This document shows positions 1,418 to 54,892 of a DNA stretch of 64,000 bases, in pieces. The stretch comes from Bolinopsis microptera (Eukaryota; Ctenophora; Tentaculata; Lobata; Bolinopsidae): NCBI RefSeq assembly GCF_026151205.1, contig NC_087075.1:556501-620500 (forward strand). The letters run 5' to 3'. A program made the translations under genes and the position numbers. Under the pieces are notes generated by a model, which saw only the letters and a list, made by a program, of their open reading frames with translations, was not told where the DNA came from and did no database searches. Numbering within the stretch: the stretch's first letter is position 1; each line of letters begins with the position of its first letter.

Positions 1418-2325
1418 GTAACTTCTAATTCTTTTAAATCTGAGGCATATATAATTGATGTATCGAAAAGATATTCCCTTTTTTACCACCTTACCATTCT
1501 GATTGATTTTGCACATGACTGACATGTTTTAACTGGAGAAGGGGTTCCCACAGTGGTAGTTTTATAAACCACTTTTAATTTATTGACCTATTATACTTAG
1601 TGGTAGTTTTATAGACCACATTTAATTTATTAACTTATCATACTTAGTATTTTTTTTTTGGTGACTGTATCACCCAGTTTTAACATTTGATAATTGTACA
1701 GTTTATTGACGACACATTGACTGAATGTTATTTTATATTCTAATTTATATTCTAGATATTTTATTTATTTTACAACAGACGACGACTTCCTGTTTTTTCT
1801 TCTATATTAGTTACTCATATCTCTTGTACAGACTTTTTTACAAGGACATTGACAAATGATACTCACATTAGGCATTCATTATTGCATCTAAATTATTTCA
1901 CTTGCATTAGGCTTAGAAATTTATTCTCTGGTCAACAGATTTCAAATGTTTAATTAATTTGTAGTATGACAGTAAGGTATATAAGAAGTTATTTAATTTT
2001 GCTTGGGCTATTATATTGACTAGGTATTGAGGTTTAATGATGATATGGAATTTGAATTCTATATAAATTTACACTATGTGGTTGGGGCATTTTGCATAGT
2101 AAATATGGTTACTACTCATATATATCATATTATTTGATTGGTATTCGATTTCTGATTATTTCTCTAGGAATATGATTATTATATCTCAATTTGGCTTTAG
2201 GTAGGGTGCCCCGCTAAAAGAACTGGATTCTTCCAGGAAGCATCCCGTGCACAGAGCTTGGTCTACATATATATTAAATTATTAACCATTCATTCTGTAT
2301 GTGCACGAAAATTTATTTCAATCAA
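1418..2325 (+). repeat. LINE-I 3' noncoding tail (shared segment from about 1566)
   Basis: Noncoding DNA after the reverse transcriptase stop. From about 1566 to 2325 it matches a segment present in every array unit (about 19365-20118, 37068-37858, 54893-55660), including landmarks such as CCCCGCTAAAAGAAC, CTTCCAGGAAGCATCC and CACAGAGCTTGGTCTAC. Homology stops at about TTATTTCAATCAA in all places. The simplest reading is the 3' UTR and 3' end of this LINE, with the array copies being 5'-truncated insertions. The clean version here serves as a reference for the noisy array copies. Confidence 0.75.
1553..1647 (+). repeat. 47-bp direct duplication
   Basis: Two adjacent imperfect copies of a segment of about 47 bp, both starting GTGGTAGTTTTATA (1553 and 1600) and running through CCACNTTTAATTTATT to TACTTAG. 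Only a few bases differ. It lies at the left edge of the segment shared with the array; the array copies keep at least the second repeat. Confidence 0.85.
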
Positions 2326-2376
2326 TTATGAATTAAGTTTTTATCAGCTGACTAAAATCGGCAATTAATGTTGCAG

Positions 2377-4585
2377 GACAGTTACAAATCGGGAGCGATA
2401 AAAAGATTTACACAAAAATTTTTATCGATGCAGACATAAAGTCGACAAAAGTTGCGATCAATGTCCTAAATCAACCTAATTGCAACAGCTCCTATGCCCA
2501 CGCTATGTTTGTGTACACAGAGGCTCCTGACCATCAGCGAAACATGGATGTGATTTTCAAGGTATATTTCTTTATAAAATGTAAAATTTGATCTGCCTTT
2601 CGTGAAATTATAAACCCAACATCATATAAGTATAGACCTGATGACACACAAATGTAAGGTTGACACCACAGGTGGTAAATCGGGAGTTAATACAGCTAAA
2701 AACACTGTCATTCTGTGGAGCTGATGTTAAGCTGATGTTGTGTGCAGACACCAAAGCACTGTGGGCTGTGTTAGGAATGGGCAGCAACGGGACTTATCCA
2801 TGCCCAATGTGTGAGATACACAAAGACCTCATGAAAGTTCCACGAGCACAGAGATCAGCTGCCAAACCCCGGACCTTTGCTGGAATCAAGCGAAACTTCG
2901 AAGACAACATGAGGTAATGTAGTTTCAAAATTGAACAACTTAATCCACTCTCTGCTTGCATCGTAAGGAATTGAGTAAACCCTGTTAGGTACTCTGTTAT
3001 GAAGGACTTGACCCTGAATTTCGTTTTCCAGGATGACCCAGTGTAACCCGAGATCCCAAGCGAAATTCCTGAATGTTGCATCGCGACCTCTCACAGACTG
3101 TTTCGGGAATGATAATGATGATCTGATTAACTGGGTCGCTGTTCCGTTCTTGCACATAGTATGTGACACGAATTGAAAAACTGTTGATGTTCATTCCTGT
3201 TTCAGTCGTGCTTTATTTATTTGAATTAGCTAATTTTCATCGTGGAAAACAGTCACGAAACCTTGAGCTTTCTCAGACCATCAAAGTGGGGACTGTCCTG
3301 TGGACTGAGTACGGTAAATTGTGCGAGGACATTGACTTTGTGCTAGCTTGCAACGTCACGGACGGATTTCTCCCCAACTGTTATAGCAGCACAACTGACT
3401 TCGGTGCCATGATCCTCCGCATACAGCAAGGTACTTGATAAATGTCTTGTTCCAAAACAATACGAGGGTTTTCGAGTAACAATTAAAATTAGAAAGTATT
3501 TTCGTTAGATGGTTACAATAAACAAATTCTCTTCTTAAGGTAATCGTGTAGCCACGAAATGTAACAGTGGCCCGCTCTCCTCTCAATATGAGAAGTTTCT
3601 GAGGGGAATTAATGTAATACCTGAGGCTTATCATGGTGTGTCGCTGACGGGTGTTAGAGCTGGATACCTGCTGAAAAGTGACGACTCCCAATTCTGGAGG
3701 GAACAGTTTTACCAAAATGAGTGAGTTGCGTTTAATCAGAACAGTTAATCTCATGAACAAATAACGAATGAGTTGATAAATCTCCTTTGCAATTGAAAAG
3801 TTACCACGTGAATGACAGGGTCTGTATTCAGGAATTTGAGACCACAGGACAAGGTGCATTTTCAGCATCGACTCTTAGCCCTCGACAGGATTAAGACCGC
3901 CTACAAAGATCTCTTGGTTGTTGGAGGCAAGAGCGGGAAGGCAGAACCTCAGGATATAAAGACTCTGATACAGTCGAGAGATATCTTTTTAGAGGAGTAC
4001 AGGAAATTTGGACAGTCATCGTCTATCAAGGTATTGTTGTAGCTTGTAGCGAAACTGGCATTCTTCCAACTCCCAAGATAGCCTGCAACAATTTAGGATT
4101 CGTGCTTAAGTCTGATATTGGAAAATTCTAGTCTGATTAATTGTAGTAATTCTCCAGCATCGTTTTCTTAACAACCTTTCAATTTAACTAGATCCACATG
4201 CTCGAGGATCACTTTGTCGACCAGATCATACTGTGGGGGATGTTATCGGGCTCATTTAACGAGCAAGGAGGAGAGAGCTGTCATTCCCTTTTCAAGCGAC
4301 ATGAACACCTGACTAGTACGAAAATCAGCTAATTTAAGACAGTTTGATCAACTCATTTGGAGACAGAAGTTTAAGTCAACTCGTTATTAGCATTAATCAC
4401 GTTTAAAGTGTACAAATAATCTCTTTCCCCCTTTCAATTTTCATGCTAGACAGTCACTATACAGTAGAATCTTAACAGCGACAATTTTCAGATCACATTC
4501 GCAACGAAGAGGAAAGAGTGACTAAGAAATGTGAAATAGCCACCAGGAAATATCTCCTTAAACTTAAATCACGGCAAAAGTCATG
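2377..4585 (+). CDS. DDE-transposase-like protein, eight 3' exons
   Basis: Eight exons join in frame with GT-AG borders: 2377-2561, 2672-2913, 3032-3158, 3277-3430, 3552-3720, 3832-4030, 4192-4315, 4492-4585 (TGA). They give about 430 residues. Intron phases match at every junction I checked; the fourth exon's acceptor (3277) is chosen because it alone combines the right phase with a good pyrimidine tract. Landmarks: CGADVKLMLCADTKALWAVL then YPCPMC (a Cys pair), a later HMLEDHF, FNEQGGESCHSLFK, and a basic end (KYLLKLKSRQKS). The D-K-L-G-PC..C and EQ.GES.H blocks resemble a large family of animal proteins probably derived from DDE transposons; the Asp and Glu in them are candidate catalytic residues. 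The exact family is not identified. The 5' exons are absent: the LINE tail ends about 50 bp before the first exon, so the LINE may sit in an intron. Confidence 0.6.
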
Positions 4586-5268
4586 AGCGGACACTATTAT
4601 GATATTTGAAACACATCTTTCGGAAAACGCTGCCTATTCATTATTCTACTAAAAAGTTTTTGTAAGCAGCGACTGCAACAAGATTCGCGCACGCGCGTTT
4701 TTATCGCCGCGCGAAGCTTTTAAAATTTTGATTACGTGTCAAGAGTGTGCGATTAACACAATGCTAGACCTGTACGAAACCTTATTGAAGCTCTTAAAAC
4801 CGATTAACGTGCAGTTTTCAAGCATAATTCCGAGTTTTCCGGTCAAAAATGGATTCAAAACGACTGAATAGTGAAAATAGTTTCAATGAAACTCGTTTAT
4901 TCAGCAAACATGGAGAATAACGCTCCTTACAGCTCGATGCATTGTTTTAAGTGACTTTCAGGTATTCGAAACTGAGATGCAAGCAAGTCAGCTTAATTCT
5001 GACCCATTGATGAGGCATCAAATATTAAATAATGGTAAAGAGACCGGTTCCTCCCAAAACCTAGTTTTAGAACCTACTTAGATGTCAGACTTGGGTGAAC
5101 CATGTAGCTGTTAAGATATATCAACTTATTTGATATGTGCACGCATTCTACATGAGTTACTGATCATACTCAAATCACAACCACCATGCAAATAAGCAGA
5201 TAGCATACTAGGAGTTTTATCCTCGATGGGCGAGCAATAATTGGACGTTTCTCGTCATTCTGACGTTT
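4586..5268. other. intergenic, nothing recognised
   Basis: Follows the stop codon of the transposase-like gene. AT-rich with one short CG-rich run near 4686-4715. I see no exon with conserved content, no RNA gene and no clear AATAAA close to the stop. Confidence 0.6.
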
Positions 5269-5405
5269 ATCGTACGATAGAGAGGCGAGAAACGATTATC
5301 GTGCGAATATCGACGATAATCGTCGGGATGTATAATAATTGCGCGCAGCAGACGATTATCGTCGATTATCGTCAAACTGCACGATTAACGTACGATTATT
5401 GTGCG
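5269..5405. repeat. cluster of ACGATTATCGT-type palindromic motifs
   Basis: Within about 140 bp there are roughly nine close variants of ACGATTATCGT or its complement, for example ACGATTATCGTGCGA, ATATCGACGATAATCGTCG, ACGATTATCGTCGATTATCGT, and GATTAACGTACGATTATTGTGCG. Spacing is irregular. Similar words recur at the inverted repeat at 8383-8420 and at the array start (TGTTATCGCACGATTG at about 8474). It could be a transposon end, a binding-site cluster or decayed satellite; function unknown. Confidence 0.8.
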
Positions 5406-6398
5406 CGACTAAAATCTGCGAAATGGCCCATATTTTCCACTGTGTTCCTCCAATCACAAGGCAAGCAGCAGACCACGTGAATAAATTTTATCCAACGCGA
5501 ACGCGCACAAAATTAATAGAGGTCGATATAATGGTATATTTTTGCTGCCTATGCGCGGCTCGATTTTAATATTTCGTGGGTTTAACACGCGCGCGTCTTG
5601 GTCAAAATTTAATTTGCTTTGTTTTCTTAGACGTCGTGTTGGTAAACATTACTGATTACACAATATACACACTACACTGTAACCTCACGCGACGGACAAA
5701 TCTCGGCGAGCGAAGCGAGCCGGCTCCGGATAGGGGCGGCAAATTTCAATTAGCAGGGGGGCGGCACAAAGTAACGTTACGCCACTGGAGCCATTTCATG
5801 TCACATTTGTGGTACAAAACCATCAATTAAACCACTTATAAACTCATATGTTTTACCGTTTTCTTGATCAAGCCGCTCGGAAATTACACGCGCACAGACA
5901 AACAGACAGACACGCATTTTGAGATTATTAGTATAGATATATACATCATATATATGCTGCGCGCGTCTCTCGCGCGAACTGATCAACCATTTATACACTA
6001 GTAATAGAGTCGTAGACCCTTTTATGTTACTTCTAGCAACTTGAAATTAGTCTAGTTCTGATGCCCAATTGCAACAAGACTGTTAAATATCACGTACTGT
6101 GTAATGTGAACGAACACTGAAAATAAGCATTTTATAACAAACATAAAACAAAATAGCCTACCCGGTGAGATTGTTCTACTATGGCGTTGGGAGGGAGGAT
6201 GTTTGGGTATTTTATATCTGACAGTCATTGGGATTTGAGATTTCCAGGGTAAGAGGGCGCTGCTCTCCGTGTTAGTTTCCAGTTGAGGTATAGTTAATAC
6301 CCAGGGTCCTCGACCTGCACAAAATTTCATAGTAAATTATATCGAATAATCTTTTGTTCTAACGTCTGATAAAATTAATTCTACTGGAAACCTGAGAT
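5406..6398. other. non-coding, probable dispersed-repeat remnants
   Basis: No supported gene. About 5690-5765 is a CG-rich block containing GGCGAGCGAAGCGAGCCGG, a self-complementary type of word often seen in dispersed invertebrate repeats. At 5888-5945 a CAGACAAACAGACAGACACG run precedes a TATAGATATATA stretch, also repeat-like. About 6170-6330 is a moderately GC-rich stretch open on the minus strand but with no recognisable protein. Confidence 0.5.
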
Positions 6399-6456
6399 CT
6401 CTAAATAGCTCTCTAAATAGCTCTCTAAATAGCTCTCTAAATAGCTCTCTATTTTT
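6399..6456. repeat. 12-bp minisatellite (CTCTCTAAATAG)
   Basis: Nearly five head-to-tail copies of a 12-bp unit, CTCTCTAAATAG, with no internal variation, ending in CTCTATTTTT. AT-rich non-coding DNA lies on both sides. Confidence 0.95.
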
Positions 6457-6848
6457 AAACCATGTTACTTTATAAGGTCCCTACAATTGTAAACTAAAAC
6501 CCATAAACATTAGAATTGTGAAGATTAGAAAACACCAAGTTGTGATCTGTACGTATCAGAATGACAGTACAGATGGCATCTTGCACGTGAGATAAACTGA
6601 ATTCAATCAGCCCAAGTGCCTGGAATGTTTCAAATAACTCGTGTTTTGCCTGGCCTATGTCCAGGAAACTGACATTTTGCAAATTGTTTAATTTTTTCAG
6701 CAGTTTTATTTTTAAATAGCGTCACTCTATTTAACCATGTCACTTTATGAGATCAGAACTTCAACACACTATGAACTCCAAAGGTTGTATAGTGTGTTAC
6801 CATGGACACCAGATTAAAGAGTTTAAATACCTGATTCTAAAGAATTCT
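6457..6848. other. intervening DNA, one open minus-strand stretch
   Basis: Between the two minisatellites. Reading the minus strand from 6682 down to 6494 gives a 62-residue open frame starting with Met (it includes AKHELFETFQALG). The composition is protein-like, but there is no family I recognise and no splice context I can confirm, so I do not call it a gene. Confidence 0.4.
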
Positions 6849-7318
6849 AACTTTAGTCTACTTTATTCTACTTTATTCTACTTTACTCTACTTTACTCTA
6901 CTTTCTCTACTTTACTCTACTTTACTCTACTTTACTCTACTTTACTCTACTTTCTCTACTTTCTCTACTTTACTCTACTTTACTCTACTTTACTCTACTT
7001 TACTCTACTTTAGTCTACTTTACTCTACTTTACTCTACTTTCTCTACTTTACTCTACTTTACTCTACTTTACTTTCTCTACTTTACTCTACTTTACTCTA
7101 CTTTACTCTACTTTAGTCTACTTTACTCTACTTTCTCTACTTTCTCTACTTTACTCTACTTTACTCTACTTTACTCTACTTTACTCTACTTTAGTCTACT
7201 TTCTCTACTTTCTCTACTTTACTCTACTTTACTCTACTTTACTCTACTTTACTCTACTTTACTCTACTTTACTCTACTTTACTCTGCTTTACTCTACTTT
7301 ACTCTACTTGATTCTACT
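6849..7318. repeat. 10-bp minisatellite (CTCTACTTTA)
   Basis: About 470 bp of tandem CTCTACTTTA on the + strand, with 8-bp contracted forms (CTCTACTT) and single-base variants (TTCTACTTTA, GTCTACTTTA) interspersed. The order of variant units partly repeats itself (near 6900-7020, 7040-7150 and 7190-7210), suggesting higher-order duplication of blocks. Any open frame through it is an artefact of the repeat. Confidence 0.97.
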
Positions 7319-7519
7319 TCAAAGTATTTTTGTAATATACGAGATTGATCCGTAACACAGTACAATATATCAAATTCTTGGCAATGAAATATTATGAAAA
7401 TACGTTCCTTTGACATCTGATCACAAAAAATACTATAAATCAATCTTCTAAATTATTTACTGAATTATTAAGTTATTTGATTTTTTCTAATAATAATGCT
7501 AATATTTATATTATTCAGA

Positions 7520-7648
7520 CCGCCAAGACAAAAGCAGCAAAGTATCTGGAAGCTGGCAACATTATGGGCTACAAAGATGTCAAGTAAACTACTTCAGGAA
7601 CTAACTAAGATGCACGGCCTTGCTAAACCTCCAGAACCACCAAAATAA
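7520..7648 (+). CDS. candidate 3'-terminal exon, product unknown
   Basis: A good acceptor (ATATTATTCAG) precedes two overlapping open readings. One gives AKYLEAGNIMGYKDVK and stops at about 7585. Another continues through LLQELTKMHGLAKPPEPPK to a TAA at about 7648. Both end just before AATAATAAAA and AGAATAAATAAT, plausible polyadenylation signals. I recognise no family, and no upstream exon is certain: the 10-bp minisatellite and the AT-rich DNA before it would be intron. It may be the last exon of a gene starting upstream, possibly unrelated to the transposase-like gene. Confidence 0.35.
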   Translation, partial: PPRQKQQSIWKLATLWATKMSSKLLQELTKMHGLAKPPEPPK

Positions 7649-8382
7649 TAAAAAAATTATAGAATAAATAATACGATAACACACTTAAATTTTTTTCAGG
7701 AATATGTCTCTTTAATTAACGTAGAAAATGTAGTTAAATTATCCTCATTTTATTTTGTATAATTACCCAATAAAGCGAATGTAACAGTAATATAAGATTT
7801 TCAATTTGCAACCTTAGAGACAATTCAAAGTAGCAGCTAAACAAGTATAGTAGTTTTTAAATTAATTATAAGATTAATTACATTGATTAATTGAATTCTC
7901 ACCTTTGTACGGGACACCAGGGCCTGTTATAGAGTCAAATGTAGAGAGTTTTGATACAGTCCTCAACAGCGGACTTGGAACTAATATTCTTGATAGCATA
8001 CTAATAGGTTATTTAAGTGAACACTTGTAAGATAAACTTAAACCGGATGTCTATACTTCTTAATAATTTGTCTTTATTCGTAAGATAATATTTGATAAAT
8101 TAAGTTATTTCAGTAGTATATAGATTATAGATAAGCTTGGAACACGAAAAGAAAACAAACTGACAGTAGAACATTTTTGAAATATAGTCTAGAAATAAAG
8201 AGCTGATCCTTGATTCCTGATAAAAAGGAAATATTCTACTGTAATCTGAACAACTCCAACGCACACTTATCTGAAATTTTCTTTAGCATTAATTTACATC
8301 ATATCCATGATATCTATGTACACCATTTACACAAGTCAAACCAAAAGTAATATGATAATATGACTTCACATTGATTTATAAT
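7649..8382. other. intergenic with polyadenylation-type signals
   Basis: AT-rich. AATAAA-type words at about 7660-7672 and at about 7770 (CCAATAAAGCG) could end the transcript of the preceding exon. Beyond that I see no gene, repeat or RNA structure. Confidence 0.5.
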
Positions 8383-8420
8383 TGTGCGATTATAATTAGC
8401 ATGCACATTATAATCGCACA
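8383..8420. repeat. perfect 14-bp inverted repeat
   Basis: TGTGCGATTATAAT (8383-8396) and ATTATAATCGCACA (8407-8420) are exact reverse complements around a 10-nt spacer, which itself contains GCATGC. It lies 50 bp left of the point where similarity to the tandem array begins. The arm is related to the motif cluster at 5.3 kb. It could be a cruciform-forming breakpoint or the end of a small inverted-repeat element. Confidence 0.9.
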
Positions 8421-9792
8421 TTTGTTACCTACGCCAGATTTTGATCTTTTCAGACCCCTCCCCTCCGTTGTATGTTATCGCACGATTGTGGATGATTCCC
8501 GAATATTTCTCAGCAACGCGGCACTAATATATAAGTTTCAATATCGAATTTTAGATATGGCCAACGATTCGTTTAACACCATATAAAAAGTTACAAAAGA
8601 ATACTTAATGTTGGTTGTTGGTATATATCGATATTAATCCATTATTATAAAAATAGTATTTGGTTGGTTTATAAATTAACTATTGATTACGTTCGATTTT
8701 AAAATATTAAAACAACTACGTACAAATACATTTCACAAAACAAAAACGACGGGGACACAGAAAGGAAGAAGGACAACACATCACACGGACGGAAACTGCT
8801 GCTGTTTATGAGTATCAGAATTATATTAATTATGGTCTCTTGATCAATACAATAGGTGTGATCATACTTCTAGAGTAATATAGGGGGCTGCACAGTATGC
8901 GCAAGGTGTTAACAATGGGTCCAAAACCGGGAGTGTGATACAACTTATTTTCGCGATTAACGTAGTAGAATACAAAATATAAAATATAAGATATAAATGA
9001 CTGCAAGTTTACGATATAGCGCGGCGCCATCTTCATTATTCTGGCGCGGTAAATCACGCTGGGTAATGAAAGATAAAGTTAAAACAATGTTTAAGGTTTT
9101 TGCGCGCTATACCTTGATTGACAATGTCAACCTTCCAGAATCGTTGCACTCTGCGAACCATAGCAACGATCGACGACGACGACTGACGACGACGATGACG
9201 CGCAACGAAGATGCGACGCAAGAATGCCTCGTTCGCGCGCGCGTCCGAATCGGCGAAGACCTCCAACACACTAACCAACAATTCAGTCCCATATCTACTT
9301 CATTAAGCCTTCCGAAAAACAAGTGCGAATATAATAATTTAATATAAAATACCAAATGCACGGTCTACCTCGCATAAAGTGTTTTTCCGTGATTTCTTTT
9401 TAGTTTTCTTAATTTTTACCTTGGCACGCCAGTCCCACTAGCGCTTCACGGCGCTTTTTCAGCTTCATGAACGATCGCGAAACAGGAAGAAAAATACGTG
9501 AGAGGAGCAAACAAGGACTATCACTAGGTAATGTCAAAGCACAATCCCAAACTTTTCAATTGTTAAGAAATGCGACCCAGCCGCTTTGCCTCTTTAGTAA
9601 AACAAAGTATTTTTAGTAAAACAAAGTAGTTTATATATTAGCAGTGCAATCGATTATCATATGATATAATTATAAAATATAATAGTATGTCACACAATTT
9701 AACTGTTACGTTCGAGTAGTCGTGCCATGGCTAAATTTACTAGACCAGTGGTTCCGATTAACATTTTAAAAGGTGATTCCTAGTGACAACAA

Positions 9793-19280: not shown

Positions 19281-19364
19281 CATCTTCCCAACAACGACAA
19301 TTCCTCATGCTCCACCATCATCTGGTTCTGCATTAAATGATAAGCACCTCTATCAAGACCACCT

Positions 19365-20118
19365 TTAAACCACTATTAATTTATTGACCTATTATACTTA
19401 TGGTAGTTTATAGACCACATTAATTTATTAACTTATCAAAATTAGTATTTGTCTTTTGTGACTGTATCACCCAGTTTTAACATTGAAAATTGTACAGTTT
19501 ATTGACGACACCATTGACTGAAGTTATTTATATTCTAAATTAATATTCTAGATATTTTATTTTCTTTTACAACAGACGACAACTTCCTGTAATTTTTCTC
19601 TATATTAGTTACTCCTATCTTCTTGAACAGCTTTTTTACGAAGACATTGACAAATGATACCCACATTAGGCATTCATTAATGCATCTAAATTTTTCACTG
19701 CATAGCTTAGAAATTATTCTCTGGTCAACAGATTTCAAATGTTAATTAATTGAAGTATGACAGTAAGTAATAAAGACGTATTTAATTTTGCTTGGGCTAT
19801 TATATGGACTAGGTATGGAGGTTTAATGATGAATATGGCATTTGAATCTATATAAATTTACAGCTATGTGGTTGGGGCATTTTGCATAGTAAATATGGTT
19901 ATCAACTCATATATATCAATTATTATGATGTGGTATTCGATTTCTGATTAATTTCTCTAGGATAAGAGTATTATATCTCAATTTGGCTTTAGGTAGTGCC
20001 CCGCTAAAAGAACTGTGATTCTTCCAGGAAGCATCCCGTGCACAGAGCTTGGTCTACATATATATTAAATTATTAAACCACCATTTCTGTATGTGCACAA
20101 AAATTTATTTTCATCAAA
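19365..20118 (+). repeat. LINE-I tail (copy A)
   Basis: Matches the clean segment at 1566-2325 throughout, ending at the same point. It sits between truncated OSGEP and the ATG of the AlkB-SGNH ORF. It is either a 5'-truncated LINE-I insertion or, less likely, the 5' UTR of LINE-II. Confidence 0.85.
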
Positions 20119-20120
20119 AC

Positions 20121-21381
20121 ATGAGGAAAAACCTGTGTAGACAACGTAGGAAGAATTCATGAAACAGTGATGCTGAATCGACCTGTCACCAATTACTGCG
20201 AATCTCTTCAGTTCAGTCAGAGATGGGCATTCATATGTTCATTTGAGAGATACAAGTATAGCGGATCCCGAGATAGAATAAGAAAACCGTGGAGATCCCT
20301 GATAAAATTGCTACACTTGCCTGAAAATCATGAGAGTTCGTGGCCGACGGAAACTCCAGAATGAAACAGCGATGTTTTATCAACCGTATAAGAAGGCGAA
20401 GGGTTATCTGCCTGAACATTCAGACAATGAACCGGTGATACATCCAGAGTCTAGCATATTGACTCTTTTCCATTGGAGGTGAATGCAAATCCTCTTCACT
20501 GAAATGAACAACCCATTCACACGCACAAGTGTACTCCAAGATCCAGTTTTACAGGATACCAGACAGAGTCGGCTCACTACAAGCACTCTATTCCATAAGG
20601 GTCAGTCACTGTGCAGTACGATATATAGTTTCACCATCAGATCAATAATGGAAAGACGTGCCAGTAATTATCTTCTCTTGATTCAATGGAGCAGTTATGA
20701 AATTTGGAAAGGATCACAAAAGAGCTTGGTAAGTGGCTGCCTGTCGGAATTTTGGACTCTACAATAGGATGGACCATTAACCCATATCTTGGCATGTGGA
20801 TACAAGAACCTGTTTTATTTGGGTAATAAATGATGTTATAAGACCATCTGTTAAATCTCAGCGTGAACTTTTTGCCAATTTAGTCCATCTAGAATTCAAG
20901 ATTGAGCAAATTCAAGAGGCCAATCAACTGCCCAAGTATTTTCTTGTCCTCTTTTACAACTCGAAATGCTGATTTAAATAGGAAATGTACTCTTTATAGA
21001 ACTTAGTCCGTCGTGAAGCTACGCCCCAAAAACATTGGTGTCCAGTCGTTGTTGGCTTTGATGACTTTCCATGACAAAAACACTGCTTACTTTGCCTAAC
21101 CTAGTCCCAGGCTTTGACAGATATGGCGAACGGATTTACCTGCACCTCAATGGAAGGGAGTGGCCAAACTTGCTACTTAATTCCGTAATACTGTCCTTGT
21201 TAGATGCATGAGGGACTGATAGGAGGAAGAGGTGGGGAGGAGGACGGTAAGGTAGGTTCAACACTTTATTCTCATCCCGCCGGAGGACAGCCTCCATGTT
21301 GAAGGCATCAGCCTCCACATGAATGTTCATTAAAAGAGGTCTGTAGCCCACAGTTTAAAAAGTATTTACTTAGTCAATCTA
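20121..21381 (+). CDS. LINE-II ORF1: AlkB-like oxygenase plus SGNH hydrolase (copy A)
   Basis: A combined reading of copies A-C from ATG 20121 gives a protein of roughly 400 residues with two enzyme-like parts. The N-terminus is acidic (VEEFIDSDAESDLHQYCESL). The middle has HSDNEP (HxD iron ligands), SSILTLSLG, a distal MTRRSQAHYKHSIPK (third ligand His) and RYSFTFR, the R-x5-R 2-oxoglutarate-binding element of AlkB proteins. The second part has DSNGAGMKFG (GDS-like block I), IVLYVGINDVRRP (GxND block III), AKIFLCPLLQTRNADLN and DYLHLNWKGVAKL (DxxH block V), the SGNH/GDSL esterase pattern. It ends with a small Cys/His motif (EVCAHC). An esterase is known in ORF1 of some CR1-type LINEs; I do not recall AlkB there. 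The ORF1 role is inferred from position just upstream of the endonuclease-RT. A separate gene is possible. Confidence 0.7.
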
Positions 21382-21599
21382 TCAATTGAAATCTACCACT
21401 GTAATTGTCCCAGTTCACTCCCTAGATGTTTTAACACCAGTGACAAACAAATAAAAAAGTTGACTTGTACTGCAATAATTGTATCCACCTAGCAGTAAAC
21501 CGTTTTATAACCCCTTTAAGCTATCTGAATGAGACAATGATGACAGCACAGATGCAGATGAGTAATACGTAAAATCTCTGAGGTACTTGAAAGGCTGTG

Positions 21600-24500
21600 A
21601 CTCTTATTCTTGTAAAAGACATAAACCGCACCTTTGCTAACGAATTACAAGTCAAAACTCACTAATAATTTAAAATCTTGATGCAACAAATCAAACTTTG
21701 AACCGCTTGCAATTGAAATAGCTAGGTTTAACTAACAAATTCTCCTGTAATATGGACTTGCTGAAAACGAATGAAGGCCCTGAATGAAAAACTTGTACAA
21801 CTCACAGGCTATGAAGCAGTCTATCAAGAACCTTCGACTCGAAAGTAAAAGGCTCAGGATTAGCTCTATAATTCCTGACTCTTCAATGCTGTCAAAAATA
21901 ACACCCTTCACAAGTAACAGAAAATCTAGAAACCCTCTTTGTAACTATAAGGTAGTCTAGGAAATTCTACTTCTATATAGTACTATAACCGCCCTGCCAA
22001 GTGGCAAGCTGACAAGCTCACCAAGAACTGTCGTCATACTTATAAAGCACCAAAACATACACACATTGCGTGATTTAACTATAATCTCCATAGTAACCAA
22101 CAGTAGCATTAATGCACAGATATGAAGAATGTTCCTATTTAAGTAGAGGCTTCTTTCCATTGAATATCATTATCAACTCATAAAAGCCTGGATGTAATGC
22201 CTCGTGCATCGACACACATACAGTACAAATGACCTAGACTCTGGTTACTGCATCTGGAGTCATAACTGATCACATATCTCATCACCTCCCAATTATTTAA
22301 CAATATAAGACTGGGAGAAATTAGCAAGACCCAAAAATATTCACAAGCACACTCAAAATTATGACTATTGTAAATCAAACAACATGATAATTTTTCGGAA
22401 GTCTTGGGTAACAAACTAGAACAAGACAATGAACCAAATATAGAATTTTAACTAACTTTCAATGATATATTTAAAAACACATTGACGAAAAACTTGCAAA
22501 CTAGCTGTACCCAAAACCACTAAGCGCACTATCCAGAACACCCCATTGATACTGCGGGATAAAGCCCTCAAGTAAACCACTGGCCATGGGCTGTACGATG
22601 ACTGGTGCGAAAGTCCGGAACGTTAAGTGTAAACAAAGCGAAACTGACACAAAAGGGGCACATCACTGTGTTCTATCTGCTGTAATAAAAGAAAAACCGT
22701 TATGTGATGACAAACAAAAATATAGAAAGGCTCTAAAAAAGGTTCGTAAAAAAGCTGTATCTGAATATTTATTCAGACGAAGTTACCTGAAAACTCAGGA
22801 AATTTCCAGAAAACCTGGAACTGATAAATAAAATTCGTGCAAAACAGAAACGTGATTATCAGACCTATAGTTTCCATAGAACAATGCAAGATAACTGCTC
22901 GCAGATTTATAGCTAATGAATTCAATAAGTATTTTGTATCCCTAGCATCTAAACTTAATGCAGCCTACACAAACTAGGAGAGATACAAATAAATCAGCTT
23001 CCAAGTTTCTGTGACTTCTTACCTAAAAAATTTCCCGAAATACAGCTAATTATAAACTACAGACTAGCTCACCTGAGGAGTGGCTAAGATCAACGGAACT
23101 TAAAGAATGGCAAGGCTAGCGACATACCAGTACATATAGTAAAGGCATATCATGCATAATTAGCCCACCTACTATCGGGTATTGTAAACGAATGTATGCA
23201 ACACGTGACTTTTCCAGAAACGACCTAAATGTAGTAAATAAGTCAAATATATAAGAAAGAAAATGTCTGAGCTTCTTTGAAAATACAGGCCTAACTCATC
23301 TCGCAATATTTCTGTAAAAATACTTGAAAAAATCATATTTCTCCAGGCTTTAACAGTTTTCTTTCAGTCGCAAGGATTATTATATGAAAAATCAATAAGG
23401 CTTAGAAAAAATCACTCGACAAGCCATGCACTCAACTTCACTGTCGACTACATTGAAAAAATCATTTAAGAGAATAAAAATCACGTACTAGGCATCTTCA
23501 TTGATAAAGTAAAGCTTTTGACAATCTGTCATGAAACCTGCTTAAAAAACTGAATGATTTATGGAATTTCGGGGGACGGCCAAATAAATTGATAGCACAG
23601 TTACCATTTCTAATAGACACAATATTATCAGTAACTTGGAGAAGACTCCGAAAAAAAACCTGTCTGTAAATATTTGGTGTCCTCAGGGGTCAGTATTAGG
23701 TCCCTTGCTTTTCAATATCTACATCAAAGAAATAACAGAGTAACAGACCTAGGTAAGCTTATACTTTTTGCCGATGACACCAACATATTGTTGTAGATAA
23801 ATGTATAAAAACACTTTACTGCAAAGCTAATAAAATTCTTAAACTTGTTCAATCAGTATATGAAGAGTAACTTGCTGCATAACAACATAAAGAAATGTTG
23901 ATATATCCACTTTAAGCCGACTGTTAGAAATGATCAGATTCAAACACCAATGAAATAGACTGACACTAAATTAAATATTAGAAATTAAAAATGTGGAGGA
24001 AACTAAGATTTCTTGGAAGTCATTATTGACCAAACTGAACTGGGATGCTCACCTTAAGAGCGGTAAACCGTAAATTGAATGTGAGATAGGTAGACATGTG
24101 GAATTAGACCTGTGTACCTAAAAAACTATATAGGACCTGTACCACACCCTTTTTGAACACCAACCTCTGTTATGGAATATCTTTTGGGGAGTGTGTATCA
24201 ATAATAAACTAGAAGCCATATTTATTAAAACACAAAAGAAATGCAATAAGAATTTCACTTTGGTGAGAATGATTCATACTTCAAAAAGTTCAAAACATGT
24301 GCCAGGAGTAAGGCCTATCACTAGGGAAAAGACCGTAAAAGTTATCAAGCAGATGTTAGGCAAAAGATTTCTTGAACTAGAAACACAGTAAACCAAACTG
24401 TAAGATATACCTTCCTGCCCTGTCCACAATCTTCATAAGTTGCACTGTTTACTGAAAGATGTTTAAATTAATAAATTTCAATCACCAGTCTCAATGTTTC

Positions 24501-24695
24501 CCTCTTTATTCAACAGGTCACAAGACGGACAACTACTTCATCCTCCCACTCCATCCTCACTTATTCCATCTATCAATCAACTCGTATTTGGACTCACTTG
24601 CCGTAAGTCAACAAGTGAAATAGACTACTCCACTCCCATCGAGTATATTCAAGAATAATCTTAAGAAATCATTGTTAGAACTACAATCTAAATAA
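21600..24695 (+). CDS. LINE-II ORF2: AP-endonuclease and reverse transcriptase (copy A)
   Basis: ORF2 of a CR1/Jockey-like LINE, which nicks the target and reverse-transcribes element RNA. Combined reading of copies A-C: endonuclease blocks FDSLAIEIARL, SVIGLAETN (catalytic Glu), SGVALYV, GVIYRPPSGN, HIAGDFNINL, CIDNIITNDL and SHHLPIF (His of the SDHLPI element) over about 21680-22300; then the linker KKVRKKAVSEYY; RT blocks YRPIS, GFRKNHSTSHAL, GIFIDLSKAFDT (Asp), GVPQGSVLGPLLF, ILFADDTNI (paired Asp at about 23768-23785), KFLGVIIDQKLNWDAHL; and a C-terminal tail ending LELQSK, TAA at 24693. The start is uncertain. The RT differs clearly from that at 2-1417 (FADDT rather than FADDG). In consensus I saw no stop that all copies share. 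Confidence 0.85.
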
Positions 24696-26180
24696 TGACC
24701 GACAAGCATTTGTGCAGTTACAACTTTGATGCAATTTGAATTATCATGAAATAGTGATTTAGTAAACATAATCATATGAGTAAACCCACGGAGTTTTAGC
24801 GAATAAACCATGACAAGATATCAGACCTATATTAATACAAAGAGACGACAAAATACGAATCATCATACAACAAATTTTTAAAATCCTGCGCACAGGATCC
24901 TGTGTTTCCTACTCTAACTCTCCCAAACCCCTCTCTCCTTCTCCTCTCATCAGGTTTATTCTTCAATTTTTTTAAAATTAGATAGCAATATATTTGTCAT
25001 TTACTGAAGTAATGGCATTATACATTGTTTGTTATTCGTAGTATGTGTGTATAGTGTTTGCTGACTGGTATATGCTATATATTTTGAGGCTCACGACGTC
25101 TCGTCCCATGGGTGAGTTTGTAGGTGCTAGTATGTTTCAAAATCTCTACATCGTAAAGGTGAAACACTGAAAACGGTTTGCCTTAGCCTATTGGGTCGAA
25201 GTGTTTGCCCACCGGGGATCACACATATATGATTATCATGCCATTACTTTGACACATAAAAACTAATCAAAACGACTTAGATGATTCCAAAAATTTTTAC
25301 TAACTGCAATTAGCTAGTTTAAAGTAAATAAACACGATCGCAGAATAGAGTGCGAGCACAATTGGTTTCCTTGTTCTGCGACTGTGTTGACCTCGGTGGC
25401 CACAGGTTTTTTGTTGTGTAGTAGTGCTGGTGAAAAAAACGCTTTAACTATCCAATGAGTCAATGAGAGTACAAAATTTTTAATTCTTGCCTTAGTGCCA
25501 CAGATTTCAGTGGTAAAACAAATTTATTAGTTAAACGTGATATAATGTAGAAGGGCATGATTTACTCCACACACTAAGCACTGGATGAAAATTGCACACA
25601 AAGATAAACTGACCTTTAAACATGACCACCAGCTATACCACGTAACCATACTCCGAAATAAATAAATTGCTCTACATATAACATCTGGCCTGATCCCATC
25701 ACATTGTGGGTCCCAGGGTTCGTAAAGCCCTTACAGGCAACTGGGTCCTTTACCACCACAAAAAAATTGATCAAGCCAGTACTGCCCAAAACTTAACCCA
25801 ACTAGTTTTTAAAAATATAGAAATCTTTTGCTAATTTGAAATTTAATCAAAGAGCAATCTTCTCAATTTTTAAAATTTTTAAGAATTATAATTTAACCCT
25901 AACTATGATGTGGAGCATTTCATACTTAACTAAATTTCAACTTGAAAGTAAATAGATTATTATGCCAACAAATATAGTTTAAGACATCCATTCTGCATTG
26001 TTTTTCCATATTAGAAATTATGATATGTATGATTGAATAATGGTAATAAATTTTAACTTTTGTTTTATTAACTTTTGTTTTATTATTTGGCAAAAGGAGC
26101 CAGTTGCCTGCAAGAGCGTTAACTAGCACCCGATTACCACTTTTGGGCACAAACTCAAACCTAAAACCGCCAACACAAAG
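24696..26180. other. LINE-II 3' UTR and unassigned unit end (copy A)
   Basis: After the ORF2 stop. Up to about 25260 this is probably the LINE-II 3' UTR (GAGGCTCACGACGTCTC, AAACACTGAAAACGG and GCCCACCGGGG blocks conserved in all copies). A short inverted pair, TCGCAGAA...TTCTGCGA, lies at about 25339-25382. About 25690-25790 is open on the minus strand in some copies with no recognisable protein. The rest to the next unit is AT-rich with no call. Equivalent stretches: 42459-43967 and 60278-61790. Confidence 0.5.
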
Positions 26181-36962: not shown

Positions 36963-37067
36963 TCTACTATCTTTCCCCCACCGACGACAATTCCTCATGA
37001 TCTAGCCATCTTCTGGTTCTGCATTAAATGATAAGCCCCTTCTATCAAAGACCACCTATTAAACCAC

Positions 37068-37858
37068 TTCTAATTATATATGACCTATTATACTAGTGGT
37101 AGTTTTATAGACCACATTTAAATATTAAACTTATCAACTTATTTATATATTAATTTGGTGAACAGTATCACCCTAGTTTTAACATTTGATAATTGTACAG
37201 TATTATTTGACGACACATTGAACTGAATTTTATTTTATATTCTACTTTATATTCTAGATATTTTTTTTATTTTACCACAGACGACAACTGTCCTGTTTTT
37301 TCTTCAATATTAGTTACCATAACTCTTGATACCGACTTTATTACAAGACATTGCAAAGATACACACCATTAGGCAATCATATTTCATCTAAATTATTTCA
37401 CATGCATTAGGCTTAGAAATTATATTCTCTGCGTCAACAGATATTCAAATGTTTAATTAATTATGTAGTATGAAAAACCAGTGTTAAAAAAAACAAAAAA
37501 AAAAGAGTATATAAGAAGTTAATTAATATTAGCTTGGGCTATTATATTGAACTATGTATTGAGGTTTAATGAAGATATGGAATTTGAAATCATAAAATTA
37601 ACCTATGAGGTTGGGAATTTTGCATAGTAAATAGGATTACAACTCATATATATCATATTATTTGAGATTGGTAATTCGATTTCCTGAATATTACTCAAGG
37701 AATATGATTATTAATATCTCATTTAGGCTTTAGGTAGGTGCCCCGCAAAAAGAAACTTGATTCTTCCAGGAGCATCCGAGCAAGAGCTTGTCTACATATA
37801 TATTAAATTAATAACCAACATTCTGTATGTGCACACGAAAAATTATTTCACTCAAACA
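37068..37858 (+). repeat. LINE-I tail (copy B)
   Basis: Same segment as 19365-20118, enlarged by a private A-rich insertion at about 37472-37505 that is absent from A, C and the clean flank copy. Confidence 0.85.
37472..37505. other. private A-rich insertion in copy B
   Basis: AAAAACCAGTGTTAAAAAAA followed by more A, absent at the same point in copies A and C and in the clean flank segment (about 1965-1980). Probably a sequencing or assembly artefact. Confidence 0.7.
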
Positions 37859-39145
37859 TAGGAAAAACCAGTGTAGACACCGTGGAAGAATTCATCGACA
37901 GTATGCTGAAATCAGACCTTCACCAATGACGGCGAATCTCTTCAGTTCAGTCAGGTAGAAAGCATTCAGTATGTTCTTTTGGAGAGAGGTACAAGTATAG
38001 CGATCCAGAGATGAGAACTAAGAAAACCGTGGAGATCCCTGATAAAATTGCTACACCTTGTCCTGAAAATCATGAGGATTATCTGTAGCATAAGAAACCC
38101 TGTAATGAACAGCGTGTTATACAACCGCAATGAGAAGTGCGAGGTTATCTGCCTGAACATTCAGACAATGAACCGGTGATACATCCAGAGACTAGCATAT
38201 TGACTCTTCCATTGGGAGGTGAAAGCAAAAGTCCCTTTCTCTGAAAAGACAAACCAGTTCACACGCACAAGTGTACTCCAAGATTCAGTTACAGATGACC
38301 AGAAGGAGTCAGGCTCACTACAAGCACTCTATCCAAAGGGTCAGTCACTGTGCACAGTACGATATAGTTTCACCTCCGATCAAATAGATGGAAAGGAAAT
38401 CGTGCCAGTACATGTATCTATCTCTGATTCAAATGGAGCAGGTATGAAATATGAGAGGATCACAAAGGAGCTTTGGGAGTGGCTGCCTGGTCGGAATGGT
38501 TTGGCTCCTACAATAGATACATAACCCATATCATGCTGAGGATACAAGAACATAGTTTTATATGGTGGTACTAAATGATGTATAGAAGACCATCTGTATA
38601 AATCTCAGCGTGAAATTATTTGCTATAATTAGTCATCTAGAATGCAAGTAATGAGCAAAATCAAGAGGCCAATCCAACATGCCCCAAGTATTTCTTCTTT
38701 GTCCCTTTTACAACCGAAATTGCTGTTTAAATAGAAAGTTCTATACTTTATAGAACTTATTCGTCGTCAGCTACTCCCCAAAAAACTTTTGGAGTCCAGA
38801 TACGATGAGAGGCAATGAATGCTTCCTTGACAATAACACTGCTTACTTTGCCTAACCTTGTCCAGGGAGTTTGACAGAAATGGCCGAACGAATTACCTGT
38901 CACCTCAATTGGAAGGAGTGGCCAAACTTCTACTTAATCGTAATAACTGTCCTTGTTAGGATGCATGAGGACGATAGAGGAAGAGGGGGAGGAGGGACGG
39001 TAAGGAGGTTCAACACTATTTATACTCATGCGCCGGAGGACCGCCTCATGTTTGAAGGCTATCAACACTCCTCCAACATGAATGTTCATAAAAAAGAGGT
39101 CTGTGCCCACTGTTTAAAAAGTATTTTACTTAGGACAATCTATAA
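37858..39145 (+). CDS. LINE-II ORF1: AlkB-SGNH (copy B)
   Basis: Copy B. The start ATG is corrupted (ATA then GGAAAAACC). The C-terminal part reads best here, including CHLNWKEW and the EVCAHCLKS end. AlkB landmarks HSDNEPVIHPE and SIL are at about 38157-38200. Confidence 0.66.
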
Positions 39146-39379
39146 TTAATGCAACCACTGCAATTGTCCAATCCCTCTAGATGATATTAACACCAGTGAC
39201 AAACAAAATAAAAAGTTACGTTGTACTTGCCATAATAGTAATCCACCTAGCATTAAACCGTTATAACCGCAATTAAGCTACTGAATGATGGACAATGAAG
39301 ACAACAGCTGATGCAGATGAAGTAATAACGTAAAAATCTCTATTACTTGAAAGCTGTGACCATATTCTGTTAAAAGACA

Positions 39380-42300
39380 TAAAACCGCACCTTTGCTAAC
39401 GAATAACAAGTGCAAAACTCACTAATATTTCAAATCTGATAGGCAACAAATCAACTATGACTCCTTGCAATGAAATAGCTAGGTTAACTAACAAATTCTC
39501 TGTAATTGGTCCTTGCAGAAACGAATGTAGCCCCTGAAATGAAAAACTTGTACAACTCACAGGCTAAAGAGAGCATCCATCAGATACCTTCGTGATCGAA
39601 AAGTAAAGGCTCAGGAGTACTCTATAAGTCCTGAACCCTTCAAGCAGTCAAAATAACAACCTTACACAAGTAACAGAAAACTATAAACCCACTTGTAACT
39701 ATAGGGAAGTCTAAGGACATCAACACAATAGGAGTTAATATACCGCCTCCAAGTGGTGCAATTCTGAGCAACTCACCAAGAACAGTCGTCAATACTTGAT
39801 AAAGCCCCAAACTTACACACATAGCAGGTGATATTAACATAATCACCATAGTAACAACAGTAGCATATAGCATACAAAAAAAAAACCAAAAGTATGAAGA
39901 AGTCTCCTATTTGTAGAGGCTTCTATCCATTGATATTCAAATAGCAACTCATGAAAAGCCTGGATGAAAATGCCTCGTGCATCGACAACCATCATTACAA
40001 ATGACCTAAGACTCTGTTACTGCCTCTGGAGTCATAACTGATCACATAATCTCTCACCTCCCTATATTTACCATATTTGACTGGGAAATTAGCAAGACCA
40101 AACATATTTCACAACACACTCAATATTATGACAATTGTAAATCAACACTGATGAAATTTATGCTAGAAGTCTTTGGTGAACAAACTAGAACAATGAACCA
40201 ATTTAATAGAATTTTACTAACTTTCATATATCTTAAAAAAACAGCATAGACGAAACCTGCAAACTAAGCTGTACCAACAACCACTAAGCGCACTATCCAG
40301 AACAACCATGGATTACTGGCGTATATAGCCTCATAAACCACTGCCAAGCGCTGTATGAAGACTGGGCGAAAGTCAGGAAAGTTTAAGTGTAAACAAGGCG
40401 AAACTGACACAAAAGGGGGCACAAGCCTGTGTTCCTATCTTCTGTAATAAAAGAAACCGTTATGGATACTACAAAGAATATAGAAATGCTCTAAAAAGTT
40501 CGTAAAAAAGCTGTATCTGAATATTATTCTGACAAGTTACTTGAATAACATCAGGGAAATTCTACCAAGAAAACTGGGAACTGATAAATATAATTCGTGG
40601 CCAAACATAAACGTGATATCAGAACCTATATTTATTACCATAGACGAAGAAAAGATAACAGAGCGCAAGTTTTAAATCAAATGATTCAATAAGTAATTGT
40701 GTAACCCTAGCATCAACATTAATGCAGCCTACACATGACCTAGGAGAGATACAAAATAAATCAGCTTCCAAGTTTCTTTACTTCTTACCTTAAATCGACT
40801 ACAGCTAATATATATCTACCATACGCTCACCTGAGGAGGTGCTAATAACATATCGGAACATAAGAATGGCAAGGCTAGCGACAATATACCAGTAACAAAT
40901 AGTAAAGGCAGTATCATGCAAAATTACCACAAAGTAACTACGGTATTGTACAACGAATGTATGCAACAGGGACGTATTTCACCAGCGACCTAAAAGTAGT
41001 AAAAATAAGTCCAAAAATAAGAAAGAAAAAGCTAGCTTCTTCAGAAAATACGGCCTATTTCTCCACCCCAACCTTAAGCAATAACGTAAAATACTTTGAA
41101 AAAATCATATTCTCCAGGCTTTACAGTTTCCTTTCAGATCGCAAGGATTAAATATATGAAACACTATGGCTTTAGAAAAATCACCGACAAGCCATTCACT
41201 CACCTTCTCTGTCGACTTACAATGAAAAATCTTTAGAGATAAAAATTCACGTACTAGTCCTCTTCAATGATTTAAGTAAAGCATTTTGACACAATCTGTC
41301 ATGATAAACTGCTACAAAACTGAATGGATTATGGAATTCGGGGGGACTGCAAATAAATTGATAGCCATTACCTTTCTATAGACAGCAATATGTTCAGTAC
41401 TTGGGAGAAGAATCCGAAAAACTGTCTGTATATTTGTTGTTTCCTCAGGGGAACATATTAGGTCCCCTTGCTTTTCATTATCTACATCAATGAATATACC
41501 GATAAATCAGACCTAGGTAAGTATATACTTTTAGGCCGATGAACACCAACGATAATTTTGTAGATAAATGTAATAAAAACACTTTACTGCCAAGAGCTAA
41601 TAAAATTTCATAAACTTTGTTACATCATATATGAAGAGTAACTGGCAGCATATCAACATAAAGAAATTTTGTTAATCCACTTTAACCACTGTAAAAATGA
41701 ACCAGATTCAAACACCCAATGAATTAGAACGGACACTAAAAAATATAGTAATTAAAAGGGTGAGGAAACTAAGTTTTCTTGGAGTCATTATTGACCAAAA
41801 AACTGAAACTGGGATGCTCACTTAAGAGCGTTTAAACGTAAATTGAAATGTGAGGATAGGTAGACCTATGTGGAATTAGACGCTGTGTACCTAAAAACTA
41901 TATAAGGAACCTGTACCACACCTTTTTGAATCATCACCCTATGTTTTGAATATCAGTTGGGGAGTGTATCAAATAAAAATCTAGAAGCCATATTTAAAAC
42001 ACAAAAGCAATGCATAAGAATTCTCTTTGGTGATAATGGATGCTACTTCAATAAGTTCAAAACATGTGCCATAGTAAGGCCTATCACAGGGACGTAAGAA
42101 CCGGTAAAGTTATCAAGCAGATGTAGGCAAAGATTTCTTTGAACTAGCACACATTAAAACCAATCTTAACGATATAACATTCCTGACTGTCACAATCTTC
42201 ATAATTCACTGTATTACTGTAACTGTTTAAAATTAATAAGTTTCCAATCCACAGTCTCAAGTTCTCCTTTATTCAACATTTCACTCATGACGAACCACTA

Positions 42301-42458
42301 CTTCATCCCACCCACTCCATCCTCACTATCCTCTATCAATCAACTTAGTATTATGGAATCACTGCCGTAAGTCAACAAGGAAATAGACTTCTCCACTCCC
42401 ATAATATATTCACAAGAATACTCTTAAGAAATCTTTGTTAGAACTACAATCTAAATAA
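39380..42458 (+). CDS. LINE-II ORF2 endonuclease-RT (copy B)
   Basis: Copy B of the endonuclease-RT. KKLASSENTAYFST near 41020-41070 and the RT core at about 41160-41560 are frameshifted as printed. Stop TAA at 42456. Same domain order as copy A. Confidence 0.83.
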
Positions 42459-43967
42459 TGACCGACAGCTTTGTGCATTACAACAACTTGAAGCAAATGA
42501 ATTACATTGAAATAGGTTGGATTTAGTAAACATAATCATATGAGTAAACCATGGTGTTATTGCAAAAACCAATGACAAGTATCAGACCTATATTAATCTA
42601 AGAGACACAAAAAACGAATCATCAACAACAAATTTTGAAAATCCTGCGCACAGGATCCTGTTTGTTTTCCCTACACTACCTCACCAAACCCCACTCTCCT
42701 TCTCCTCTCTTCAGGTTTATTCTTCAATTTTTTGAAAAATAGATAGCAGTATATATTTTCTATTTTAAATGAATAATGGCATTATACATTGTTTTGTTTT
42801 ATCGTATGTAATTGTGTATAGTGTATGCTATGACTGGGGATATGCTAGATATTTTGAGGCTCACGACGTCTCTTCCCATGGGTGGAGTTTTGGTAGGCTG
42901 AGTATGTGTTCAATCTCCTTACATCGTATGGTTGAAACACTGAAAGGTTGCCTTAGCCCTTTGGGATCAGTGTTTTTGGCCCCACCGGGGATCCAATTAT
43001 ATGATTACATGGACATTACATTGACACCCATACTAATCAAACGACTTTAATGATTCAGAAAATTTTTACAACCTGCATTAAGTCAATGTATATAGAAATA
43101 CACACGATCGCAAAGAAAAGAGGACACAAATGGTTCCTCGTTCTGCGACGTGTTTCCCTCGAGGTGGGCCGACAGGTTTTTTTGTTGTGTATAGTGCTGG
43201 GGAAAAAAACGCTTTAACTATCAATGAGTCAATGAGAGTACAATTTATAAATTCTGACCTAGTGCCACAGTTTCTGTGGTAAAAACAAATTAATAATTAA
43301 ACGTGATATATTGTAGAAGGGCATGATTTACTCAACATCACTAAGCTCAGGATGGATAATTAGCACACAAAGAATAAACTGACCTTTAAAACATGACCAC
43401 CAGCTATACCAACGTAACCATAGCTTCCGAATAAAATAAATTGCTCTCACATAAAACAACTGCCTGGATCCCATGCACATTGTGGTCCCCAGGTGTTCGT
43501 AAAGAGCCCTTACAGGCAACTGGGTCCTTTTACCAGCCACAATAAAATTGAATCATGCCAGTACTGTCCATAGAACTGTAACCAACAATTTAAAAATAAG
43601 ATATCTTTTCTAAATTTAAAATTTTAAGTCAAAGAGAAATCTTCTCAATTAAAATTTTTAAGAATTAATATATTACCCTACTATGAAGTGGTGGCATTTC
43701 AACTTAACTAAATTTCAACTTTGAAAGTAAATAGATAATTAGCGACCAACAAAATTATATTATTAAGACATCCATTCTGCATTGTGTATTCCAATATAGA
43801 ATTTATGATATTGTTATTGAATGAATAAATGGTAATTAAATTTAACTTTGTTTTTATTAACTTTTGTTTTATTATTGCAAAGGACCAGTTGCCTGCAATA
43901 GCTTACTAGCACCCGAATTTACCACTTTTGGAGCACAAACTCAACTAAAACCGGCCATGCAGCAAAA
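42459..43967. other. LINE-II 3' UTR and unassigned unit end (copy B)
   Basis: Same content as 24696-26180. No gene recognised. Confidence 0.5.
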
Positions 43968-54802: not shown

Positions 54803-54892
54803 ATCTATCTTCCAACAGACGACAATTCCTCATGAATCACCATCATCTGTTCTGCATTAAATGATAAGCCACTTCTAAACAAGACCACTTTA

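Follow-up and report, generated by a model that had tools for sequence, protein, structure and literature searches.

The DNA at positions 20121-21381 of the window, which is the whole 64-kb stretch analysed here (C4:556501-620500), belongs to a non-LTR retrotransposon (LINE), probably a CR1/L2-like one, and forms the 3' half of its ORF1, which is followed in the same orientation by an ORF2 with a zinc finger, an endonuclease (EN) and a reverse transcriptase (RT). In clean copies of the element ORF1 is one open frame of 709-716 aa, which contains a PHD finger, a probable coiled coil, an AlkB-like 2OG-Fe(II) oxygenase domain and an SGNH/GDSL hydrolase domain. This domain order is accompanied by overlapping ORFs, a complete set of AlkB catalytic residues, purifying selection and a long association with the RT, and PHD-coiled coil-AlkB-SGNH is rated here as a new ORF1 type. 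The original prediction, which read an AlkB domain fused to an SGNH hydrolase as the ORF1 of a LINE, is supported: the fusion stands, while ORF1 as a whole extends further 5', into the PHD and coiled-coil half, and is split by an insert in the window copies.

The ORF1 of the clean copy L005 is a single frame of 709 aa from stop to stop, with PHD at 51-98, AlkB at 344-478 and SGNH at 528-655, and the ORF1 of a related subfamily has 716 aa. Positions 161-237 of a profile made from 12 ORF1s match a GCN4-fusion chain (6.4e-4), so a coiled coil is likely between PHD and AlkB. The same profile matches PHD fingers such as that of BPTF; PHD PF00628 is found at E<=0.05 in nine of 20 loci, over the cut-off in one. 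Some ORF1s keep AlkB with PHD unmatched, for example those of L012, L014, L015, L016, L020, L022 and L024, and in L022 a PHD match lies in ORF2. ORF2 has 1133 aa and comprises a zinc finger, recognized by eye, the endonuclease and the RT. In the clean copy L002, Pfam matches are AlkB PF13532 (E=6.2e-15, over the cut-off), RVT_1 (5.7e-36) and Lipase_GDSL_2 PF13472 (E=4.4e-6, under the Pfam curated cut-off of 32.9 bits).

RVT_1 is matched in all eight ORF2s scanned and EN, at E<=0.001, in seven of them; EN and RT within one ORF2 define the element as a LINE. RNase H has no match among the scanned ORF2s, several of which end at the locus border; this, together with PHD and esterase in ORF1, points to the CR1/L2/Jockey superfamily. 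Of 20 loci measured, 10 have the stop of ORF1 overlapping the start of ORF2 as aTGA, and these represent six families (four loci of the window family, and L006, L007, L008, L012/L014 and L023); in the other 10 the first ATG of the ORF2 frame lies -65 to +717 from the ORF1 stop. In L013 both ORFs are fused in one frame of 1611 aa. The overlap and the single frame of L013 identify the AlkB ORF as the element's ORF1. At L004 4986-8537 a window-family ORF2 ends abruptly and is followed by one of L013 type, as in a nested insertion or a template switch.

Three copies of the LINE, here B, C and D, are found within the window by blastn mapping of L002, with starts about 17.8 kb apart, which is also the spacing of the repeated units of the window. 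Copy B, on the forward strand, begins with an 86-bp remnant of the 5' half of ORF1 (the 3' end of the PHD/coiled-coil half) at 19282-19364, which is followed by an insert of about 757 bp between coiled coil and AlkB (19369-20120), the AlkB domain (20117-20656), the SGNH domain (20657-21322), the zinc finger and endonuclease of ORF2 (21319-22930), its RT and C-terminus (22931-24754) and the 3' untranslated part (24747-26085). The whole ORF2 of copy B thus spans 21319-24754. Positions of the coding domains come from the L002 mapping and their identity from the clean copies, while the 3' untranslated part is the 3' stretch common to L001, L002, L003 and the window. In copies C and D, respectively, the ORF1 remnant is at 36966-37057 and 54805-54888, AlkB at 37854-38395 and 55657-56204, SGNH at 38400-39081 and 56207-56875, the zinc finger and endonuclease at 39078-40694 and 56877-58465, the RT and C-terminus at 40696-42515 and 58471-60336, and the 3' untranslated part at 42506-43874 and 60327-61693; the coding parts from AlkB to ORF2 cover 37854-42515 and 55657-60336. 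The placement of AlkB-SGNH just upstream of an endonuclease-RT ORF, as first proposed, is borne out both by this mapping and by the aTGA overlaps.

The coding parts of the window copies are 85-91% identical to L002, with many gaps, and no long open frame is present at 20121-21381. This 1261-base stretch is 100% identical at three sites, on the large contigs C1, C4 and C5, and the remaining 37 of the 40 scored copies have 82-90% identity (the genome searched comprises 264.65 Mb in 232 contigs). In view of the gappy identity and the letter-for-letter repeats on three large contigs, the noise of the window is taken as inaccurate sequence, and the element was for this reason read from the clean copies. 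The identical noisy copies on C1, C4 and C5 suggest that the assembly includes one and the same inaccurate sequence several times over. The window was initially taken to have four LINE copies, a count which was abandoned: mapping gave three, and in the first of the four units no LINE is found in the 1.4-9.6 kb searched. The spacing from this first unit (1401-9600) to the next one is nevertheless about that between LINE-bearing units. A satellite with a period of about 10 bp lies near 6850-7320, and scans of the window with Rfam (gathering threshold) and for tRNAs gave no matches.

The insert, of 757-760 bp, separates AlkB from the 86-bp remnant; of the PHD/coiled-coil half, nothing beyond this remnant was found in the window copies. 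It is also present in the clean copy L003, with 91% identity between window 19369-20120 and the L003 insert, and it occurs without a LINE at window 1568-2325 (99.7% identity). An intron between coiled coil and AlkB was considered for this stretch and rejected, because it has no GT-AG ends by eye and a possible AAAC duplication. Three different upstream sequences, which are the normal ORF1, the 760-bp insert and the endonuclease ORF of another LINE family, meet the AlkB half at AAC|ATGAGG or one or two bases from it (L001 2547, the end of the L003 insert and window 20117).

In AlkB enzymes the HxD...H residues are the iron ligands and two C-terminal arginines contact 2-oxoglutarate. PF13532 is over its cut-off (31.2 bits) in all 20 fetched loci, all of which were chosen as AlkB matches, and also in the four scanned ORF1s with a long frame from loci chosen by endonuclease. 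All 21 aligned rows, among them that of a Helitron, have the H, D and E of HxDxE, the distal H and the two RxSxTxR arginines; these rows were cut out by a pattern that requires both arginines, and no fetched ORF1 failed it. The E two places past the D of HxD is found in 28 of 28 rows of a larger alignment. A single ORF1 protein matches human ALKBH2 at 1.5e-4, and against PDB sequences the profile of 12 ORF1s matches ALKBH2 (1.7e-17), ALKBH8 (1.5e-13) and ALKBH3 (2.5e-13), while FTO and ALKBH5 are absent among the 30 PDB sequences it matches at E<=0.001. In closest similarity and in the acidic residue past HxD, the domain falls with the ALKBH2/3 subgroup, so by sequence the LINE AlkB resembles ALKBH2/3 and shares their catalytic set, with ALKBH2 as best PDB match. 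ALKBH2 and ALKBH3 are stand-alone repair enzymes, alongside which related viral AlkBs exist. The iron and 2-oxoglutarate signature, first read from noisy letters, is thus recovered as a Pfam domain in clean sequence.

The SGNH domain is recognized mainly by its residues. At E<=0.05, 14 of 20 loci have a PF13472 match, with a best score of 30.7 bits against the curated cut-off of 32.9 and none above it. The catalytic blocks of SGNH enzymes are Ser (in GDS), GxN and DxxH, and D493, S494, G542, N544, D647 and H650 are invariant in 12 of 12 aligned ORF1s. The profile of 12 ORF1s also matches three chains which we take to be SGNH enzymes (best 4.5e-5). The SGNH blocks noticed in the window are therefore confirmed as conserved residues, though the family profile stays below its curated cut-off.

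The AlkB domain is present in about 20 divergent LINE families of this genome, a number which stands for 23 LINE rows of the larger AlkB tree described below, with four close pairs among them. In a protein search, 143 of the 150 best-scored copies (of 791 candidates) have no stop in the AlkB stretch, with 41-100% identity, and copies lie on all 13 large contigs among these best-scored 150; a PF13532 search of the best 150 of 587 candidates lists 151 matches, one of which has stops. In 19 of the 20 fetched loci a complete or partial ORF2 lies directly downstream on the same strand, the exception being L018. These loci were chosen mostly for long frames, so the sample favours intact copies. To lessen this bias, seven families were chosen for an endonuclease similar to that of the L022-type LINE, and 2.9 kb upstream was searched in one copy of each. 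Five of the seven have an open AlkB ORF1 (L048, L050, L051, L052 and L054), while in the same 2.9 kb L053 has SGNH and no AlkB match, and L049 has neither AlkB nor SGNH. L055, found by similarity, has a PHD-like ORF1 without AlkB (and with no Pfam PHD match). Judged by L049, L053 and L055, AlkB is not essential to every LINE here, and the seven families, being relatives of the AlkB-bearing L022 type, describe this type and not the frequency among all LINEs. Intact copies of the same RT carry the AlkB-SGNH ORF, which also travels with related RTs in these five families, as the original reading of an ORF1 would have it.

In trees built from 17 loci, with 14 splits each, ORF2 and AlkB have 7 splits in common, ORF2 and SGNH 8, and AlkB and SGNH 7; none of 10,000 label shuffles reaches the observed counts, their maximum being 3-4. 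Support within the AlkB tree is modest, with 3 of 14 branches starred. A larger AlkB tree also includes human ALKBH2 and three AlkB genes presumed to be host genes (L056-L058, each of about 1-1.5 kb). In it the LINE AlkBs without the pair L016/L017, and with the Helitron AlkB, lie on one side of a branch with support 100/98, which is 82/69 when L016/L017 are included. Bar this pair, the LINE AlkBs thus group apart from the three presumed host genes. On this comparison of sequences, the AlkB domains of about 20 families have largely one origin.

The AlkB domain is under purifying selection. Of seven pairs, four have a computable (unsaturated) dS, and in these the dN/dS of AlkB is 0.053, 0.095, 0.063 and 0.117, whereas the upstream part of ORF1 gives 0.284, 0.214, 0.179 and 0.168 in the same pairs, so AlkB is the lower in all four. 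It is also below SGNH in the three pairs where SGNH is computable, and ORF2 gives 0.059-0.226 where computable. Between L015 and L020 the ORF2 proteins are 98.4% identical and the AlkB domains 66.7%, which probably reflects a recent exchange of ORF1 between families.

SGNH and AlkB are also found together in a Helitron, which is encoded at L018 3883-9000 and L047 2-5149 (C10:16.87-16.89 Mb) by one long frame of 3388 aa. Its domains are, in order, SGNH, AlkB (3.3e-21), DUF6570, Helitron_like_N (7.3e-23) and PIF1 helicase (4.7e-22), and the Rep/HUH domain with the PIF1 helicase identifies it as a Helitron; its Pfam matches include no RT domain. As in LINE ORF1, SGNH is paired with AlkB, but SGNH precedes AlkB in the Helitron and follows it in the LINE, and in the Helitron both share one long ORF with the transposition enzymes. 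The Helitron AlkB falls inside the LINE AlkB group on a very long branch, and its place in the tree is for that reason unsure. The pairing in two unrelated types of element suggests that the two enzymes work together. PF13532 matches in four ORFs of 3226-3388 aa, one of which was read, suggest more such Helitron copies.

Esterase and PHD ORF1s of CR1/L2 LINEs were reportedly described by Kapitonov and Jurka in 2003, and the element of the esterase study discussed below is said to be ZfL2-1. In the accessible part of Metcalfe and Casane 2014 (PMC4120745), CR1/L2 LINEs have ORF1 of type IV (esterase) or type III (PHD), and ORF1 domains have been swapped between LINE families. The present element is like these types in having PHD and/or SGNH esterase upstream of an EN-RT ORF2, and differs in that PHD, coiled coil, AlkB and SGNH share one ORF1. 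ORF1 types I-V of Jockey-superfamily LINEs are listed in that part of the review, which names neither AlkB nor an oxygenase, so the combination found here fits none of the published types in it. The esterase of a non-LTR retrotransposon in PMC3905857 is likewise in ORF1, and the accessible part of that paper mentions no oxygenase. No LINE AlkB was found in the open-licence PubMed Central literature, judged by titles and abstract openings. The nearest precedent for a retroelement AlkB is that of an orchid Ty3/gypsy element, an LTR element of a plant titled a recent acquisition, for which the accessible part of PMC9289625 gives RNA demethylation in vitro, an activity that belongs to the orchid element; the element described here is non-LTR, is spread over about 20 divergent families and has AlkB fused to SGNH.

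Of the two LINE proteins, that of ORF1 is the less well understood. The explanation of the whole that we hold to be somewhat better than even is that a PHD-coiled coil-AlkB-SGNH ORF1 would demethylate element RNA, or target DNA, for the RT. A single transcript would serve both ORFs, and multimers of the ORF1 protein, formed via the coiled coil, would coat the element RNA. The ALKBH2/3-like AlkB may then remove base methylation of the Watson-Crick face (m1A, m3C and similar) from this RNA or, alternatively, from single-stranded target DNA, and methyl groups left in place would stall the RT during target-primed reverse transcription. The known substrates of ALKBH2 and ALKBH3 are methyl groups that block Watson-Crick pairing, and ALKBH8 is a tRNA enzyme. 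The presumed substrate derives solely from the similarity to ALKBH2/3, and ALKBH8 scoring as well as ALKBH3 counts against it. Lipids or acyl groups may be the substrate of the SGNH domain, which the title of PMC3905857 hints at for such esterases. If demethylation for the RT is true, a demethylase with catalytic residues kept across many families would mean that base methylation of template or target is a real obstacle to retrotransposition. More tentatively, and with the balance against it, a LINE ancestor may have captured an ALKBH2/3-like gene and fused it to SGNH, after which the pair would have become a standard part of ORF1 in about 20 families, reached a Helitron and served as on-board repair of the template. 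AlkB-kind enzymes are added by biochemists so that RTs read methylated RNA, and such an element would itself carry an enzyme of this kind.

DNA or host RNA as the AlkB target is the main rival. The enzyme would then act on host molecules near the target, either chromatin DNA or host RNA such as tRNA, and PHD would recruit it to histone tails; at about one chance in four this is unlikely, and several results lean to it. PHD is matched in nine of 20 loci, with resemblance to BPTF, which is a histone reader; the best PDB match, ALKBH2, is a DNA repair enzyme; and AlkB occurs in a Helitron, which is a DNA transposon and has no RT match, so help to an RT makes no sense there and the Helitron speaks against an RT-only role. 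On the other side, AlkB is kept by families whose ORF1 gives no PHD match, although in L022 there is such a match in ORF2. It is more doubtful that AlkB counters an m6A-based host defence on element transcripts, which has been proposed for the orchid AlkB, a Gypsy-encoded protein that binds RNA and demethylates it in vitro according to the accessible part of PMC9289625; the erasers FTO and ALKBH5 do not appear among the 30 PDB matches of the LINE profile, in which ALKBH2, ALKBH8 and ALKBH3 are nearest.

A catalytically dead AlkB, kept for RNA binding alone, would agree with other ORF1 types that bind transcripts via RRM or zinc-knuckle domains (PMC4120745, accessible part), but mere binding would not need invariant Fe(II) ligands and both arginines in 21 rows, and this reading is very improbable. 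That AlkB-SGNH is a separate host gene which happens to adjoin a LINE is allowed only by the broken window copy; with copies on all 13 large contigs among the best-scored 150 of 791, six families whose ORFs overlap and a LINE group from which the three presumed host AlkB genes are excluded, its probability is negligible. Demethylation of element RNA or target DNA for the RT is the preferred function.

The 5' ends of these LINEs carry a further sequence. Among the 24 loci L001-L024, 13 have a 41-nt leader of ctenophore type ahead of ORF1 with at most 6 mismatches, in LINE copies of many divergent families, while the other 11 have 14-20 mismatches; its positions include L002 1491, L007 813, L010 760, L014 476, L015 1155, L016 969 and L019 200, and on the minus strand at L003 8766, L005 5365, L006 5518, L009 5649 and L012 5757. 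The sequence upstream of it differs from locus to locus. Compared with the trans-spliced leader of the ctenophore Hormiphora californensis, taken from the accessible part of PMC8527503, it scores 24, against a maximum of 14 in 5,000 shuffles, which makes it very probable that this genome belongs to a ctenophore. Copies of the LINE that begin with the leader suggest that the LINE RNA was trans-spliced before it was copied; a rival explanation is a shared 5' promoter, which trypanosomatid Pr77 elements have (PMC8190864, accessible part).

The genome contains 1343 leader copies at <=2 mismatches and none of the reversed pattern. Two 181-bp arrays of the leader were considered as SL RNA genes and rejected, because no GT follows the leader. 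The idea that most leader copies mark AlkB LINEs was likewise rejected: in a sample of 20 exact copies, five have sense LINE homology, one more has antisense homology and one has an AlkB ORF1, so the leader is not specific to AlkB. C1 has 63 exact copies; the sample took about every second one of the first 45 and skipped close pairs and three copies known to lead a LINE ORF1, so that 5/20 and 1/20 are underestimates. Hundreds of leader sequences were counted in ctenophore genomes (PMC8527503, accessible part), and such published counts may partly represent retrocopies. A second leader-like 5' sequence, ...TTTCACAACTACAATTA.ATACATTTATTGAG, is found at L008 813 and L011 738 (element orientation) and is possibly a variant of the leader; a sequence similar to it lies at about 62-100 of L055.
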